Positions 32,605 to 38,206 of a stretch of 64,000 nt of DNA are shown here, piece by piece. The notes beneath the pieces were generated by a model. The model made no database searches. It had not been told where the DNA came from and saw nothing but the letters and a program-made list of their open reading frames with translations. The stretch comes from Myxococcales bacterium. Lineage in GTDB: Bacteria; Myxococcota_A; UBA9160; UBA4427. Made by a program: the position numbers and the translations under genes. The stretch is from assembly GCA_022563535.1 (NCBI GenBank), contig JADFNE010000009.1, positions 1 through 64,000 of the forward strand, given 5' to 3'. Every line of letters begins with the position of its first letter. Position 1 is the stretch's first letter.

Positions 32605-35046
32605 CTAAGAAGAGTCACCGAGCCGCGCCAGCTCGGCTTTGGCGTCAATGAGTTCGGGAAATGTGCTGCCCTCGATCGCCTGTTCGAGCGCTGCTCGCGC
32701 TTGTTGGTTCGAGCCGGCCTTTGCCAATGCCACACCGAGCCGGAAGCGAATCGACGGGGAGTCGGGTCGCAGCTCTAGCGCCTTGTTGAAGGATTCGATC
32801 GCCTTTGCATGGGACCCCCGCTTGAGCTGAACCCATCCGAGAGTGTCGAGAGTGTCCGCGTCGGGCTGCATGGAAGATGCCCGGGTGGCGAGGGTGAGTG
32901 CCAGATCGAGTTCGGAGTCGGTCTCGGCCAGATGCCATGCGAGATCGTTGGTTGCGGGAACGTGTCCCGGCTGTCTTTTGGCGATCTTGCGCAAGCGTGC
33001 GACGTAGTCCTCGGTTTTGCCCTGGCTTCGCACGAGCATCGCCGCCGAGTAGGCGTAGTCGGGGTCGCCGCGACCGATTGCGGCCGCCCGGTCGAAGTAG
33101 GTGAGTGCAGTATCCAGATCTCCTGTGCGTGCGGTGAGATTGCCCTTCGCTTCGAGGGCCGAGGCAAGTTCCGGATCCTGCGCGATCGCAGCGTCGATCA
33201 ATGCGCTCGCTTCGTGGATTCGACCCTCGAGGGCCAGCGTTCGTCCCTTCGTTTCCATGGCAATTGCGCTCTCGGGATTGCGCTCGTAGAGGGCGCTCGC
33301 AGCGGCTACCGCATCGCCCTTGCGGTCCGCGGCAAACAGCAACTTGATGTAGGTCTGCAGGGCCACCAGATTTGCGCTGTCTGCGAGGTCGAGATCGCTC
33401 TTTTCGATCACGTCGATCGCCTGGGCAAGACCTTCGTGCTCGCTCACCAGGGTGGCACGCTCGGCGATCGCGTCTCCGGCGAATATGGTCTGTTGGAGTG
33501 CGTCCAGAACTCGATAGGCCGACTCGAGATCGCCAAGTTTGTCGGCCGAGCGCGCGTCGATGATGTGCGCATCGGGCTTGTCGAGTGGACGATTCTGAAC
33601 GTGCCGCGCCGCGAACTGTCGGGCGATTTTGAATTTCCCCATCGTGAAGTAGATTCGCGCGAGTTGGAGTGAAGCATCAGTTTCTGTTTCTGATGCACGC
33701 ACCGATTCGCGAAATTCGACAGTCGCGCGATCGTGGTTCCCCGAGCGCTGGGCCGCGACCCCTGCGAGGTAGCGCGCTCGCGCGTTGTTGGGCCACAGAC
33801 GGAGCGCTTCGTCGAGTTTCTGGAGGGCTTCGGCGGGCTTGTCTCGCGCCAACAGGATGGCGCCAGTCAGAAGATGCCGGTAGCTGGGCTCCTTGAGGCT
33901 CTTTGCGACTTCTTCGGCGCTGTCGAGATCCCCTTCTTCAATGAACAGATCGCCCACCGTGAAGCGAAGCACGTCGGGCTCGCGCTTGGTCCTCGAGAGT
34001 GCCGTTTGGAGTGCCTTGCGGGCTTCTTCGGGTTTGTTGTTCTGTCGGTACAGGTTCGAGAGCTTTTGGTAGGCCCGCGCGGTATCGAACAGCTTCGCGC
34101 TGTTTTCCATCAGTGCTTCGGCCTCTTCGACGGCTCCGTTGTCGGCGAGCATGTCTGCCAAGGTCGAGCGCAGGTCGAAGTTTTCCGGGTTGTTGTCCAC
34201 CGCACCGCGCCAGATCTCGATCGCTTTGTCGGCCTGGTCGGTAATGATATAGAAGCTCGACGCCCACGATCGAACCATGGGATGCGCGGGATACTTTTCG
34301 AGACAAACTTCGTGGGTCTGCTGCGATTTGTCGTTATCGCCCTGATCTGCATAAAAGCGCGCGAGGATGCCGCAGGCGCGTGCGGCCTTGTCGACACTGG
34401 TTCCCTCTTCGGTGATCTTGATCAACTCGAGTTGGCTCGCTTCCGCTTCGTCAAAGCGCTTGAGATCGACCAGGGATGACATCTTGATCGCATACCCGTG
34501 GGCGTCCCCGGGCTTGAGCGTCAAAATGTGCTCTGCGTCTTCCAGGGCTGCGTCTGGCCGGGCGGCGCCGAGCAGTGCCTGGGCGCGACCGTAGAGGGCG
34601 ACGCGATTGTCGGGGTCCCTTTCGAGCACCCGGTTGATTGCGCGGATCGCCTCTTCGTGGGAATCCTGCGAAATCAGCGTGGCGGTGAGGAGCAGGCCCG
34701 CCTGGACTCCGTACTCTTCACTGTTGGTCGCTTTCATTAATGGCCACAGCGCAAGGCTGGCACGACCGGTTTGTACCAGGGCCACGCCCAGTCGGTAGTT
34801 GGCCTCGGGATGGTCGGGATCGGCGGTCAAGAGCACGCGCAATGGCTTGATCGACTCGTCGAAGCGCCCCCCGGCCTGAATCGCGCGAATCTCGGCAAGC
34901 CGGGTCTCGGGATCGTTGTAGCAGCCTCCCAGGAGCAGGCCGACGAGCGCGAAAAATGCGACGATTCCGAAGCTGAGCCGCGACCTGGGGGTGGCGCTCC
35001 TGATCGGGGATTGATCGCGGGTCTCGAAATTGGTCGTTTGTTGCAT
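32605..35046 (-). CDS. Large TPR-repeat lipoprotein (PrsT-like), first of two
   Basis: An 813-residue protein: short N-terminus, hydrophobic segment, lipobox LLLGGC (about residue 41), then repeats typical of TPRs (DESIKPLRVLLTADPDHPEANYRLGVALVQTG, EEAIRAINRVLERDPDNRVALYGRAQALLGAAR, HAKAIESFNKALELRPDSPSIRFRLGVALAKAG). The open frame extends to 35373 but the added residues look non-coding, so I chose ATG at 35046, just ahead of the signal sequence. Known PrsT-type lipoproteins sit in exosortase loci and are thought to help assemble surface polysaccharide or protein. It is transcribed away from the PEP-CTERM gene across a 568-base gap. Confidence 0.82.
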   Translation of the reverse strand: MQQTTNFETRDQSPIRSATPRSRLSFGIVAFFALVGLLLGGCYNDPETRLAEIRAIQAGGRFDESIKPLRVLLTADPDHPEANYRLGVALVQTGRASLALWPLMKATNSEEYGVQAGLLLTATLISQDSHEEAIRAINRVLERDPDNRVALYGRAQALLGAARPDAALEDAEHILTLKPGDAHGYAIKMSSLVDLKRFDEAEASQLELIKITEEGTSVDKAARACGILARFYADQGDNDKSQQTHEVCLEKYPAHPMVRSWASSFYIITDQADKAIEIWRGAVDNNPENFDLRSTLADMLADNGAVEEAEALMENSAKLFDTARAYQKLSNLYRQNNKPEEARKALQTALSRTKREPDVLRFTVGDLFIEEGDLDSAEEVAKSLKEPSYRHLLTGAILLARDKPAEALQKLDEALRLWPNNARARYLAGVAAQRSGNHDRATVEFRESVRASETETDASLQLARIYFTMGKFKIARQFAARHVQNRPLDKPDAHIIDARSADKLGDLESAYRVLDALQQTIFAGDAIAERATLVSEHEGLAQAIDVIEKSDLDLADSANLVALQTYIKLLFAADRKGDAVAAASALYERNPESAIAMETKGRTLALEGRIHEASALIDAAIAQDPELASALEAKGNLTARTGDLDTALTYFDRAAAIGRGDPDYAYSAAMLVRSQGKTEDYVARLRKIAKRQPGHVPATNDLAWHLAETDSELDLALTLATRASSMQPDADTLDTLGWVQLKRGSHAKAIESFNKALELRPDSPSIRFRLGVALAKAGSNQQARAALEQAIEGSTFPELIDAKAELARLGDSS

Positions 35047-35295
35047 GGCTGGCCGAAGCCTCCGTGAATCAAAATGGCGACCGAGAGTACGCCAATTTTG
35101 AGAGTTTCCAATCGCTTGGTCGAACACCCGCTGGGCGTAGCCCAAGACTGGCTCTCGTTGCGGTGAGTGGTCGCAAAGTCGAGAAGGTGAAGTGTTTTCT
35201 CGGCCAAATTCTCCGATTCGCCCAGGGGATGGACAGCTGTCGGAAAGTTGCGAATTTCTTGTGTATCGTGATGTCTCTCCCGGTGGGCAAGGGCA

Positions 35296-35309
35296 GGAAA
35301 AGATTTTCC
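35296..35309. promoter_or_regulatory. Palindrome, candidate upstream activator site for the sigma-54 promoter
   Basis: GGAAAAGATTTTCC is a perfect inverted repeat (six-base arms, two-base spacer) roughly 155 bases upstream of the expected transcription start. Sigma-54 promoters need an enhancer-binding activator at about this range. The assignment is by position only. Confidence 0.35.
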
Positions 35310-35430
35310 CAAGAAGTCCTAAAGTTTCTTCTCCCAGAGGGGGGTCTAGTTCTGTACCAGCCGTTCCTGGCATCGGTTAATATTAAACAAAAACCGCATG
35401 TTACGTAGAAACCCGGGCAGGAGTGAATGG

Positions 35431-35446
35431 TGGCATCCGAATTGCA
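35431..35446 (+). promoter_or_regulatory. Sigma-54 (RpoN) -24/-12 promoter of the PEP-CTERM gene
   Basis: TGGCATCCGAATTGCA matches the consensus TGGCACG-N4-TTGCA with the required GG-to-GC spacing exactly kept (GG at 35432-35433, GC at 35444-35445). Transcription would begin near 35457. In known PEP-CTERM systems a sigma-54-dependent response regulator (PrsR) is a frequent partner, which makes the match biologically sensible. Confidence 0.75.
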
Positions 35447-35614
35447 TCTTGGAGAGGTGGAAACCGAGTGAATCGCAGCCCCCGGAGAGCTTTGACTCCG
35501 GAATTTGCTTTCTTTCCGCATAGAAAATTGCGCCAAGTGGTAAGGACAGTGGAGCCTGCAGCACCGGTTGAAACGATTTTTAGAGACTCAGAGAACGAAA
35601 GAGAGGACGAACTC

Positions 35615-36514
35615 ATGCGCAATATGTTAGTAGCCGCATTGGCTTTCGGGATGGCGCTCGCCTTCTCGACCCCGGCGAGTGCGGGGCTTGCCACGCTGGA
35701 TCCGGCCCAAAGTTTCTTGGATATCAAGCTTGGTTCCATTCCTCGGATTCGCCTCAACGCGCAATCCGCGAGCGTTACAATCAGCGGCGGACCCGGGGCA
35801 CACTCCATCGCCGAGTCTGCAAGTGTCTTCCAGACGGACACCTTCACAGTTCAATCGGCGGCCTTCACTGGTTTTCCAGATCTCACCGGACTCAAGATCA
35901 GCTTGCACGCGGGTATCGGTAATTTCGGTGAGAACGCCTCTTACGTCAACCCATTCGGGCCCGGTCCGATTCAAGGTTTCGGTGGTTCTGAAGCCAACAC
36001 GGGTTTCGCGACCCTCACCGCCGGTGGCTTCCAGTTCCTGATCTCTCTGGGCAACCTCGGCTCCGGCGGCATGACGACTCTGGCCGCAGTACTCCAGAAC
36101 GTTCTCGTCGTCACCGGCGCACCGTTCAATACCGGCCCCGCAGTAATCACCGGTCTTTCCTCGAACATCTTGCGAGTGCCGAGCCTGGGCAGCATCACGG
36201 GTGTGGCGTTCACCCTCAACCTGACCACGGTTCAGCTGCTCACCGCAATCGAACTCACGACCGGCGCGGGAGCGAAACTGGAAAACAGCATGGTAACCCT
36301 CAGCAGTGGGTTCAATGGTCTGGTCTCCGAGGATTCGAGCGGTCAGATCAAGATGGTTTCGCCCTTCCGCCTGAAGACTGGCGGCCTTGCGGGTAACATT
36401 GCGGGTTCCGTCACCAAGACGTTCACCTTCGTTCCGGAGCCGGGCACTATGCTGCTGCTCATCAGCGGCGCTGCTGGCCTGGCGATCGTTGGCCGAAAGC
36501 GAATGCGCAAGTAA
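35615..36514 (+). CDS. Secreted PEP-CTERM protein, predicted exosortase substrate
   Basis: A 299-residue protein with an N-terminal signal peptide (MRNMLVAALAFGMALAFSTP, cleavage after ASA). The mature part is rich in Gly, Ser, Thr, Leu and Val with no Cys and no known catalytic motif. The C-terminus is a textbook PEP-CTERM signal: VPEPGTM, a hydrophobic stretch (LLLISGAAGLAIVG), then RKRMRK. Exosortase would cut near the PEP motif and release or anchor the protein. The open frame begins at 35423, but ATG 35615 has GAGAGGA seven bases ahead and starts the signal peptide exactly. A sigma-54 promoter lies upstream and a strong terminator follows. The body does not resemble a family I can name. 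Confidence 0.9.
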   Translation: MRNMLVAALAFGMALAFSTPASAGLATLDPAQSFLDIKLGSIPRIRLNAQSASVTISGGPGAHSIAESASVFQTDTFTVQSAAFTGFPDLTGLKISLHAGIGNFGENASYVNPFGPGPIQGFGGSEANTGFATLTAGGFQFLISLGNLGSGGMTTLAAVLQNVLVVTGAPFNTGPAVITGLSSNILRVPSLGSITGVAFTLNLTTVQLLTAIELTTGAGAKLENSMVTLSSGFNGLVSEDSSGQIKMVSPFRLKTGGLAGNIAGSVTKTFTFVPEPGTMLLLISGAAGLAIVGRKRMRK

Positions 36515-36551
36515 GCATGCGCCTCGGCGAGAGCCAATGAAGCTCTAGAAG

Positions 36552-36583
36552 AGGCGGCCATCCTTCGGGGTGGCCGCCTTTTT
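36552..36583 (+). terminator. Rho-independent terminator after the PEP-CTERM gene
   Basis: AGGCGGCCA and TGGCCGCCT form a perfect nine-base stem that continues inward to a CC-UUCG-GG tetraloop, followed by a run of T. It lies 38 bases after the stop codon, so the PEP-CTERM gene is a single-gene transcript. Confidence 0.92.
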
Positions 36584-36612
36584 CTTTTTGATTTCGCGAA
36601 GTCATCTGCCGA

Positions 36613-36653
36613 TGGGTCTGAAAATCCGGGTTAGACTCCCGGACCCACGACCA
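36613..36653 (+). other. tRNA-3'-half-like hairpin, possibly a remnant
   Basis: The sequence holds CTGAAAA (an anticodon-loop-like heptamer), a T-arm-like hairpin (CCGGG, loop TTAGACT, CCCGG), outer TGGGT/ACCCA pairing and a trailing ACCA. A full tRNA cannot be built: there is no D-arm or matching 5' acceptor strand, and the T-loop lacks the conserved C. It may be a decayed tRNA fragment or chance. Confidence 0.25.
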
Positions 36654-36691
36654 CTCGGGCTCGCGAGAACCTGCCTCGCTGGCCAGACGAG

Positions 36692-36718
36692 CAAGCGCAA
36701 CAAGCGCAACAAGCGCAA
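36692..36718. repeat. Three tandem copies of a 9-bp unit upstream of the sulfatase-like gene
   Basis: CAAGCGCAA is repeated three times in a row, followed by related AGACGCAAAG. It lies 34 bases before the start codon at 36752. No role is evident. Confidence 0.6.
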
Positions 36719-36751: not shown

Positions 36752-38206
36752 ATGGCAAACCGCACGTTCTCCGATTCAGCCTGGATCTACTTCGCCGGGG
36801 CAGGCCTTCTCATCGTCGCCGCCATCGCGAGCCAGATCGAGGTGAATCTTCCCCGCGATCGTCCCGAAAGGCCGGTGGAAGCTCTGCTCGAACTCGGAGC
36901 GCGCGACGATCTCAACGTCCTCTTCATCGTGATCGACACGCTGCGGGCCGACCGCATGAACGCCTACGGCTACCACCGGCAGACAAGTCCGATCATGGCC
37001 GATCTGGCCGCAGGCGGGATCCGCTTCGCATCCGTTGAGAGTCAGTCGAGCTGGACCAAGGCTTCGATGGCTTCCATGTGGCAGGCAATGTACCCGCAAT
37101 ACACCGGCATTCAGCGCTACTTCCAGTCGATGACCGACGATGCCGAGATGCCCACCGAAATCCTTCACGACGGCGGAATCATCACCGGTGGCATCTGGCG
37201 CAACGGATGGGTGGCAGCAAATTTTGGCTTCAATCAGGGGTTCGATCTCTACGTTCGTCCTCATCCGGTCCGTCGCGGAGACATGCAAAAGGGGAATCCT
37301 TCTGCCCGCAATTTGAACGGAAGCGACTATGACGCCACCGAGGCGGCCTTCGGATTTTTTGATGCGTACAAGCAGGACCGATGGTTCCTCTACGTCCACT
37401 ATATGGACGTACACCAGTTTGCCTACGCCGATACCTCACCGATCTATGGAACCAGCGTCAGTGACTTCTACGACTCGTCCATCCACTGGGTGGATCGCAA
37501 CGTCGGCATGCTTGTCGACGCATTGCAGGATCACAACCTGGTCGACAAGACCTTGATCGTGATCATGTCCGACCACGGTGAGGCGTTCTGGGAGCACGGC
37601 CAGGAAGGACACGCGCGCACACTCTTCCGCGAGGTGCAGGGTGTTCCCCTGTTGATCATCCCGCCCTTCAAAATTCCGGGAGGGATCGTCGTCGAGCCGC
37701 AGGTTGCGAACGTCGATATCTGGCCCACGATCCTCGATCTGCTGGACCTTCCGCCCCTGGGGCGCGCGGACGGAAAATCGCTGCTGCCGTTGATGTTGGC
37801 GGCGGGGAGCAGCGATCCTCCTGGCCCAGACGCCCAGGCTCTCGCGAATCGCACCCTCTACGCTCAACTCGATCTCTCCTGGGGCAAGGTGGGAGTCGAT
37901 TCAGACCCGCTCGTTTCCATGATCAAGGGCGACTACCGCGCCATCTTGCGCAACAAGATCGACGGCCAGGAATGGCTCTACGATCACTCCGTCGACCCGT
38001 TGGAAAGAAACAATCTCGCCCAGGAGAAGCCGGATCTCTTCTCCGAACTCAAGGCCGAGATTCAGGCATTTCTCGCTCGGACTCCCGACGACCCGGTTGA
38101 AACCGAGGACGTCGAGTTGTCGGAAATGCGCCTGCATCAGTTGCGGGCGCTCGGCTACATGATCGAGCCGCGAACCAAAAAAAATGCGCCGGGTGGGGAT
38201 GATTGA
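36752..38206 (+). CDS. Membrane-anchored sulfatase-superfamily hydrolase with Thr at the nucleophile position
   Basis: Protein of 484 residues. One N-terminal hydrophobic segment (about residues 9-25) acts as anchor or signal. The sulfatase-like domain shows NVLFIVIDTLRADRMNAYGY, SQSSWTKASMASMWQAMYPQ, MSDHGEAFWEHGQEGHA and WPTILDLLDLPPLGRADGKSLLP. Where CxPxR carries the formylglycine precursor the sequence reads T-K-A-S-M, so neither Cys nor Ser is present and the following Pro and Arg are also lost. This argues against a classic sulfatase. The first 30 residues and the absence of a clear ribosome site leave the start slightly uncertain. It is downstream of the PEP-CTERM terminator and so is probably transcribed on its own. 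Confidence 0.78.
   Translation: MANRTFSDSAWIYFAGAGLLIVAAIASQIEVNLPRDRPERPVEALLELGARDDLNVLFIVIDTLRADRMNAYGYHRQTSPIMADLAAGGIRFASVESQSSWTKASMASMWQAMYPQYTGIQRYFQSMTDDAEMPTEILHDGGIITGGIWRNGWVAANFGFNQGFDLYVRPHPVRRGDMQKGNPSARNLNGSDYDATEAAFGFFDAYKQDRWFLYVHYMDVHQFAYADTSPIYGTSVSDFYDSSIHWVDRNVGMLVDALQDHNLVDKTLIVIMSDHGEAFWEHGQEGHARTLFREVQGVPLLIIPPFKIPGGIVVEPQVANVDIWPTILDLLDLPPLGRADGKSLLPLMLAAGSSDPPGPDAQALANRTLYAQLDLSWGKVGVDSDPLVSMIKGDYRAILRNKIDGQEWLYDHSVDPLERNNLAQEKPDLFSELKAEIQAFLARTPDDPVETEDVELSEMRLHQLRALGYMIEPRTKKNAPGGDD

Follow-up and report, generated by a model that had tools for sequence, protein, structure and literature searches.

Genes and features at the locus

The window, that is, the whole stretch of 64,000 nucleotides analysed here (C9:1-64000), belongs to a genome of 4.63 Mb (G000). 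All the genomes compared in this work are MAGs and their gene calling is crude. A gene for a PEP-CTERM surface protein of 299 residues is located at 35615-36514 on the forward strand. The protein scores 19.6 bits with TIGR02595 (cut-off 16) and reaches the cut-off of PF07589. With a PEP-CTERM domain in the protein and exosortases over cut-off in the same genome (on C61, C16 and C79), it can be classed as a PEP-CTERM/exosortase substrate. The gene is monocistronic. Directly 3' of it, a hairpin with a 16-pair stem and a T tail (36548-36583, forward strand) resembles a terminator by its match to the consensus. Upstream, a divergent gene (32605-35046, reverse strand) encodes a PrsT-like TPR protein, with 206 bits to TIGR02917, below the cut-off of 312. 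This neighbour is syntenic in the genus and 65-69% identical in G001-G003. A sulfatase-like gene that follows the PEP-CTERM gene, at 36752-38206, is also syntenic in the genus (ca 68%), and a sulfatase-like gene is found near the PEP-CTERM homolog in other genera.

A sigma-54 promoter site in the intergenic gap

The start of the TPR gene (35046, reverse strand) and the ATG of the PEP-CTERM gene (35615) delimit a gap, 35047-35614. The first-pass annotation had proposed a sigma-54 promoter in this gap, ahead of a secreted PEP-CTERM protein, and its reading of both site and setting is confirmed: TGGCATCCGAATTGCA is found exactly at 35431-35446 on the forward strand. The GG and GC of the -24 and -12 elements are correctly spaced, in agreement with the consensus TGGCAY-N5-TTGCW. 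A GTG at 35423 opens a frame through the site. However, the start kept in the orthologs is ATG 35615, so the promoter site is non-coding. From the position of the -12 GC, transcription is predicted to start at 35457 (forward strand), which would give a leader of ca 158 bases. A search for sigma-70-type promoters in 35000-36700 gave no match.

The genome carries a single rpoN gene (531-codon frame, 213 bits), a point that the earlier annotation had proposed to check. Several genomic matches to TGGCAYN5TTGCW precede flagellin genes and flgB, as recognised from their translations, which argues that RpoN uses this consensus here. Exact matches number 26 in the genome, versus 8 for the reversed control. 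The pattern alone is therefore only moderately rare and a lone match could be due to chance.

Conservation in relatives argues that TGGCATCCGAATTGCA is more than that. Orthologs of the PEP-CTERM gene are 67-70% identical in three genomes of the same genus and weaker in other genera. Besides the window gene, six orthologs, three of the same genus and three of other genera (G005, G007 and G011), have a full-consensus sigma-54 site, located 116-211 bases before the start codon where the start could be measured. In a four-genome alignment within the genus, 12 of the 16 columns of the site are invariant (hypergeometric P 3e-7), versus 14% of the remaining gap. No other stretch of the gap is as conserved; a dyad, GGAAAAGATTTTCCC, comes second, with 9 invariant columns out of 15 at 35296-35310 (P 2e-4). 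In the stretches examined, no sigma-54 site was found for the more distant homologs L081 and L083-L092, nor for the second paralogs L096 and L097. Taken on its sequence and conservation, TGGCATCCGAATTGCA is almost certainly a genuine sigma-54 promoter of the secreted surface protein gene.

The leader contains a conserved island of its own (35482-35535), made of a CCGGAG...CTCCGG hairpin followed by GCTTT. In the leaders of relatives, an element resembling TTGCGCCAAGTG or CGTGCAAAGT comes after the hairpin and the GCTTT. A role of this island in leader regulation is possible.

A dyad upstream of the promoter

The dyad GGAAAAGATTTTCCC (35296-35310, forward strand) lies 135 bases upstream of the promoter and is proposed to be the enhancer, a putative activator-binding site that the first-pass annotation had not noticed. 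It matches GGAAAANNTTTTCC at 12 of 12 positions, and none of 2000 shuffled sequences did as well. The dyad was first spotted by eye in G000, ahead of the PEP-CTERM genes of the window, of C67 (L050) and of C113 (L046), where it lies 132-135 bases before the promoter in all three cases. Afterwards, it was recovered in the orthologous promoters of other genomes. A MAFFT alignment of the three non-orthologous G000 promoters was not useful because their spacing differs.

The exact sequence GGAAAANNTTTTCCC occurs in just two places in G000 (window and C67), both before PEP-CTERM genes with a sigma-54 site. In G002 and G003 it occurs once each, in the promoter of the ortholog. In four genomes, 14 of 25 near-exact dyads are followed by a sigma-54 site at a distance of 60-190 bases, for an expectation of 0.015-0.025 each; some of these 14 are mutually orthologous, leaving about nine independent cases. 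In 170 bases of background sequence, the GGAAN6TTCC pattern is found 0.0075 times on average. Of the 26 exact sigma-54 sites of G000, 3 are preceded by this pattern, whereas the flagellar sites all lack it. The dyads of L046, L080, L082 and L093 are degenerate (10 of 12 positions, shuffle p 0.02-0.03). Those devoid of a sigma-54 partner (L143-L145, L147-L149, L155 and L158) were set aside as probably chance occurrences or other sites.

Distribution of the dyad and promoter in the order

The two elements were searched for as a composite pattern, GGAAN6TTCC-N90..150-TGGCAN6TTGC. About 105 matches were found, in 54 of 79 genomes and in 11 families of the order, against one for the reversed control. 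From the product of the background rates, ca 8 composites would be expected by chance in the order, whereas the control gave a single match; a few of the ca 105 matches may thus be due to chance. Several genomes of the family lack the exact composite. Bases left free by the pattern are biased as in sigma-54 sites and dyads: 95% are C or T after TGGCA, and the interior of the dyad is A/T-rich and symmetric.

Among 49 closed first ORFs downstream of composites, 20 are PEP-CTERM-like, as counted with a simple regular expression. Among the products of other first genes are two small conserved proteins and secreted proteins with thrombospondin-repeat-like or dockerin-like features. Regulators occur as well: an ECF sigma factor, which scores 83 bits with TIGR02937, and a kinase to which a degenerate sigma-54 domain is fused. 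On C79 of G000, a dyad and sigma-54 unit is flanked by an exosortase gene on one side and, on the other, by a pair of genes for a secreted protein and a PEP-CTERM protein. The first-pass annotation had suggested looking for the motif before other PEP-CTERM genes. Some do have it, but the dyad-plus-promoter site is carried by a minority of the ca 30 PEP-CTERM genes of this genome. Taken together, these sequence patterns suggest that the dyad and promoter units apparently define an order-wide regulon in uncultivated Myxococcota, made of surface-protein and regulator genes.

Several features of the downstream genes deserve mention. In the ECF sigma factor genes (L136, L152, L290, L341, L343, L346-L348 and L354), the leader measures a few hundred bases and comes after a sigma-54 site and dyads, the latter often in tandem, an arrangement that would correspond to a sigma-54 to ECF cascade. 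One small conserved protein, with the sequence MASMKRGVGYCENTDCEDYAKG, is encoded behind the composite sites of L286, L300, L357, L359 and L007. Another conserved protein, of ca 130 residues, contains the motif KLDExLxxLxxYxxRM and a C-terminal LH; it is encoded behind the composites of L289, L305, L306, L327, L345 and L370. Regulon proteins L137, L146, L151 and L156 (and L139, L150 and L157) end in PSMGPAGLATVATLMALSAGYAIRGRF or PSMSGPGIAALVGLMSLAGGYAMRQRRK, which resemble a C-terminal sorting signal. Composite targets in the genus include proteins with ends of the type PSMGPAGLA or PSMSGPGIA, a possible second sorting signal. No NCBIfam match was obtained for L137, L139 and L146 and no Pfam match for L156.

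Candidate activators

The first-pass annotation had proposed control by a two-component system located elsewhere. The activator is indeed not encoded in the window, and that it is a response regulator is plausible, since each of the two main candidates contains a receiver domain. In this section, orthology of the enhancer-binding proteins (EBPs) is defined by best hits.

The first candidate (C18 EBP, G000:C18:38835-40253) is encoded at the head of an XrtA-type exopolysaccharide operon whose best models, TIGR03027, TIGR03007, TIGR03015 and TIGR03018, are each somewhat under cut-off. The protein has receiver, sigma-54 AAA+ and Fis-type HTH domains and thus belongs to the NtrC family. Orthologs 71-89% identical are found in 28 of 30 genomes of the family, and 19 of the 28 corresponding promoters contain an exact GGAAN6TTCC. 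Within the genus, two dyads are conserved in this promoter, together with only a weak sigma-54 site. The candidacy of this protein arose from the perfect dyad before its G001 ortholog. A second EBP (C11 EBP, G000:C11:75611-77048) had been the sole candidate and lost that status when the dyad-bearing C18 EBP emerged. From its own dyads and its place in the exopolysaccharide operon, we infer that the C18 EBP has about an even chance of being the activator.

The C11 EBP is 60-77% identical in 27 of 30 family genomes; that of G000 has GSFSGA instead of GAFTGA. In nearly all family genomes its gene adjoins, on the same strand, a dyad-controlled gene for a kinase of 729 residues (L179:5783-7969; G000:C11:69782). 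The kinase, present in 28 of 30 family genomes, matches the HisKA and, in degenerate form, the Sigma54_activat domains. By its sequence, it joins a histidine kinase to a receiver-like stretch at the N-terminus and to a degenerate AAA+ domain of the sigma-54 type devoid of GAFTGA.

The dyad could be bound by the C11 EBP, the C18 EBP being just one of the targets, or the two EBPs could form a cascade. In most family genomes, and also in other families, a dyad-like site and a sigma-54 promoter precede the kinase gene that neighbours the C11 EBP. G009 has composites although it contains a 53% paralog of the C18 EBP and no ortholog. On the other hand, G026 lacks a C18 ortholog and also lacks any composite and the dyad at the kinase gene. 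Moreover, dyads are present at the promoter of the C18 EBP itself, which is encoded in an exopolysaccharide locus, as is PrsR in other systems. Because G009 and G026 point in opposite directions, the choice is left between the C18 EBP, at even chances, and the C11 EBP, a serious though less probable candidate.

Control by PrsK and PrsR, which the first-pass annotation had in mind, fares much worse. In this alternative, the promoter would be activated through the PEP-CTERM box of Haft et al. The layout of the locus is similar, with a long gap, a sigma-54 site and a PEP-CTERM gene, PrsT-like TPR genes are present in the genome (206 and 268 bits to TIGR02917, cut-off 312.2) and PrsR was tested by DAP-chip in Desulfovibrio (PMC3333781). 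However, the best scores are 419 bits for PrsR (TIGR02915, cut-off 502.6) and 105 bits for PrsK (TIGR02916, cut-off 300). The half-site TTTACA of the PrsR box, searched for as this hexamer, was not found within 130 bases upstream of any of the nine promoters checked. The conserved element here is a different dyad, located ca 105-165 bases from the promoter, versus a spacer of ca 63 bases for the Haft box. Canonical PrsK/PrsR control is largely refuted by the model scores and we consider it improbable. Finally, the idea that the 16-base match is fortuitous and that transcription of the gene relies on a sigma-70 promoter, to which the 8 reversed-control matches in the genome lend some colour, is hardly credible given the conservation across genera, the fixed partner dyad and the lack of a sigma-70-type match.

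Comparison with known systems

RpoN control of PEP-CTERM genes is already known (PMC1569441, PMC9850573, PMC3333781). Haft et al. (2006) described their motif, a 17-mer ending with TTTACA and located 32-92 bases before the sigma-54 site, from no group other than the Proteobacteria in the definition of the time (PMC1569441). The present system resembles this PrsK/PrsR regulon by its single PEP-CTERM genes, long gaps, -24/-12 promoter and upstream activator site, as well as by a regulator in or near an exopolysaccharide/exosortase locus (PMC1569441). It differs by the site, GGAAN6TTCC instead of the 17-mer ending with TTTACA, and by its distance (PMC1569441). Moreover, family models identify neither PrsR nor PrsK here, and the set of targets is wider, since it takes in other secreted proteins as well as a kinase and an ECF sigma factor.

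The pepA gene of Aquincola tertiaricarbonis is likewise an RpoN-dependent PEP-CTERM gene, whose -24/-12 start was mapped (TGGCAC/CTGCTT) (PMC9850573). In contrast to the present case, its host is a betaproteobacterium with PrsK/PrsR and the gap is short, 85 bases (PMC9850573). DVUA0057 of Desulfovibrio vulgaris, whose gene belongs to an EPS operon, is an NtrC-family response regulator able to bind PEP-CTERM promoters, but it is a separate regulator from a separate lineage (PMC3333781, PMC4641369). EpsI/Nla24 of Myxococcus xanthus, known for its action on EPS genes and for c-di-GMP binding, is an NtrC-like EBP with receiver, AAA+ and HTH domains encoded inside an EPS locus; it resembles the C18 EBP by domains and locus (PMC4877007). 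In the open-licence literature, we found no description of the dyad, of its regulon or of PEP-CTERM regulation in Myxococcota. The putative GGAAN6TTCC activator site has apparently not been described previously.

Proposed mechanism and significance

The sequence data make it very probable that TGGCATCCGAATTGCA is the RpoN promoter of a monocistronic PEP-CTERM unit activated by a dyad-bound NtrC-family EBP, most likely the C18 EBP or else the C11 EBP, as part of an order-wide regulon. At promoters of the sigma-54 class, an EBP bound upstream loops the DNA and remodels the holoenzyme by ATP hydrolysis. Here, the sigma-54 polymerase would wait, silent, at 35431-35446. An NtrC-family EBP would bind the dyad GGAAAANNTTTTCC at 35296-35310 and loop the DNA; as expected from the promoter class, it would then remodel the holoenzyme at the expense of ATP. 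The single PEP-CTERM gene would be transcribed from about 35457 up to the hairpin at 36548-36583. The same dyad and promoter would drive the genes of PEP-CTERM and related secreted proteins, of the ECF sigma factor, of the kinase and of the small conserved proteins. Autoregulation of the EBP and of the kinase would result in a positive-feedback switch. The input signal may come from the kinase; c-di-GMP is another possibility, given the analogy with M. xanthus EpsI/Nla24 (PMC4877007).

A more specific model, for and against which we see equal chances, is that of a PrsR-independent, order-wide regulon of Myxococcota. An EBP of the EPS locus reading GGAAN6TTCC would activate its own kinase and an ECF sigma factor along with exosortase-sorted surface proteins, in a positively autoregulated cascade of surface remodelling.

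Many environmental bacteria have exosortase-sorted surface proteins. To our knowledge, a switch for these proteins is known only for the PrsK/PrsR type. The present analysis offers a well-supported second type of switch, with a defined DNA site, an order-wide list of targets and two candidate activators. Both the exopolysaccharide locus and an ECF sigma factor would thereby be tied to the output of surface proteins.
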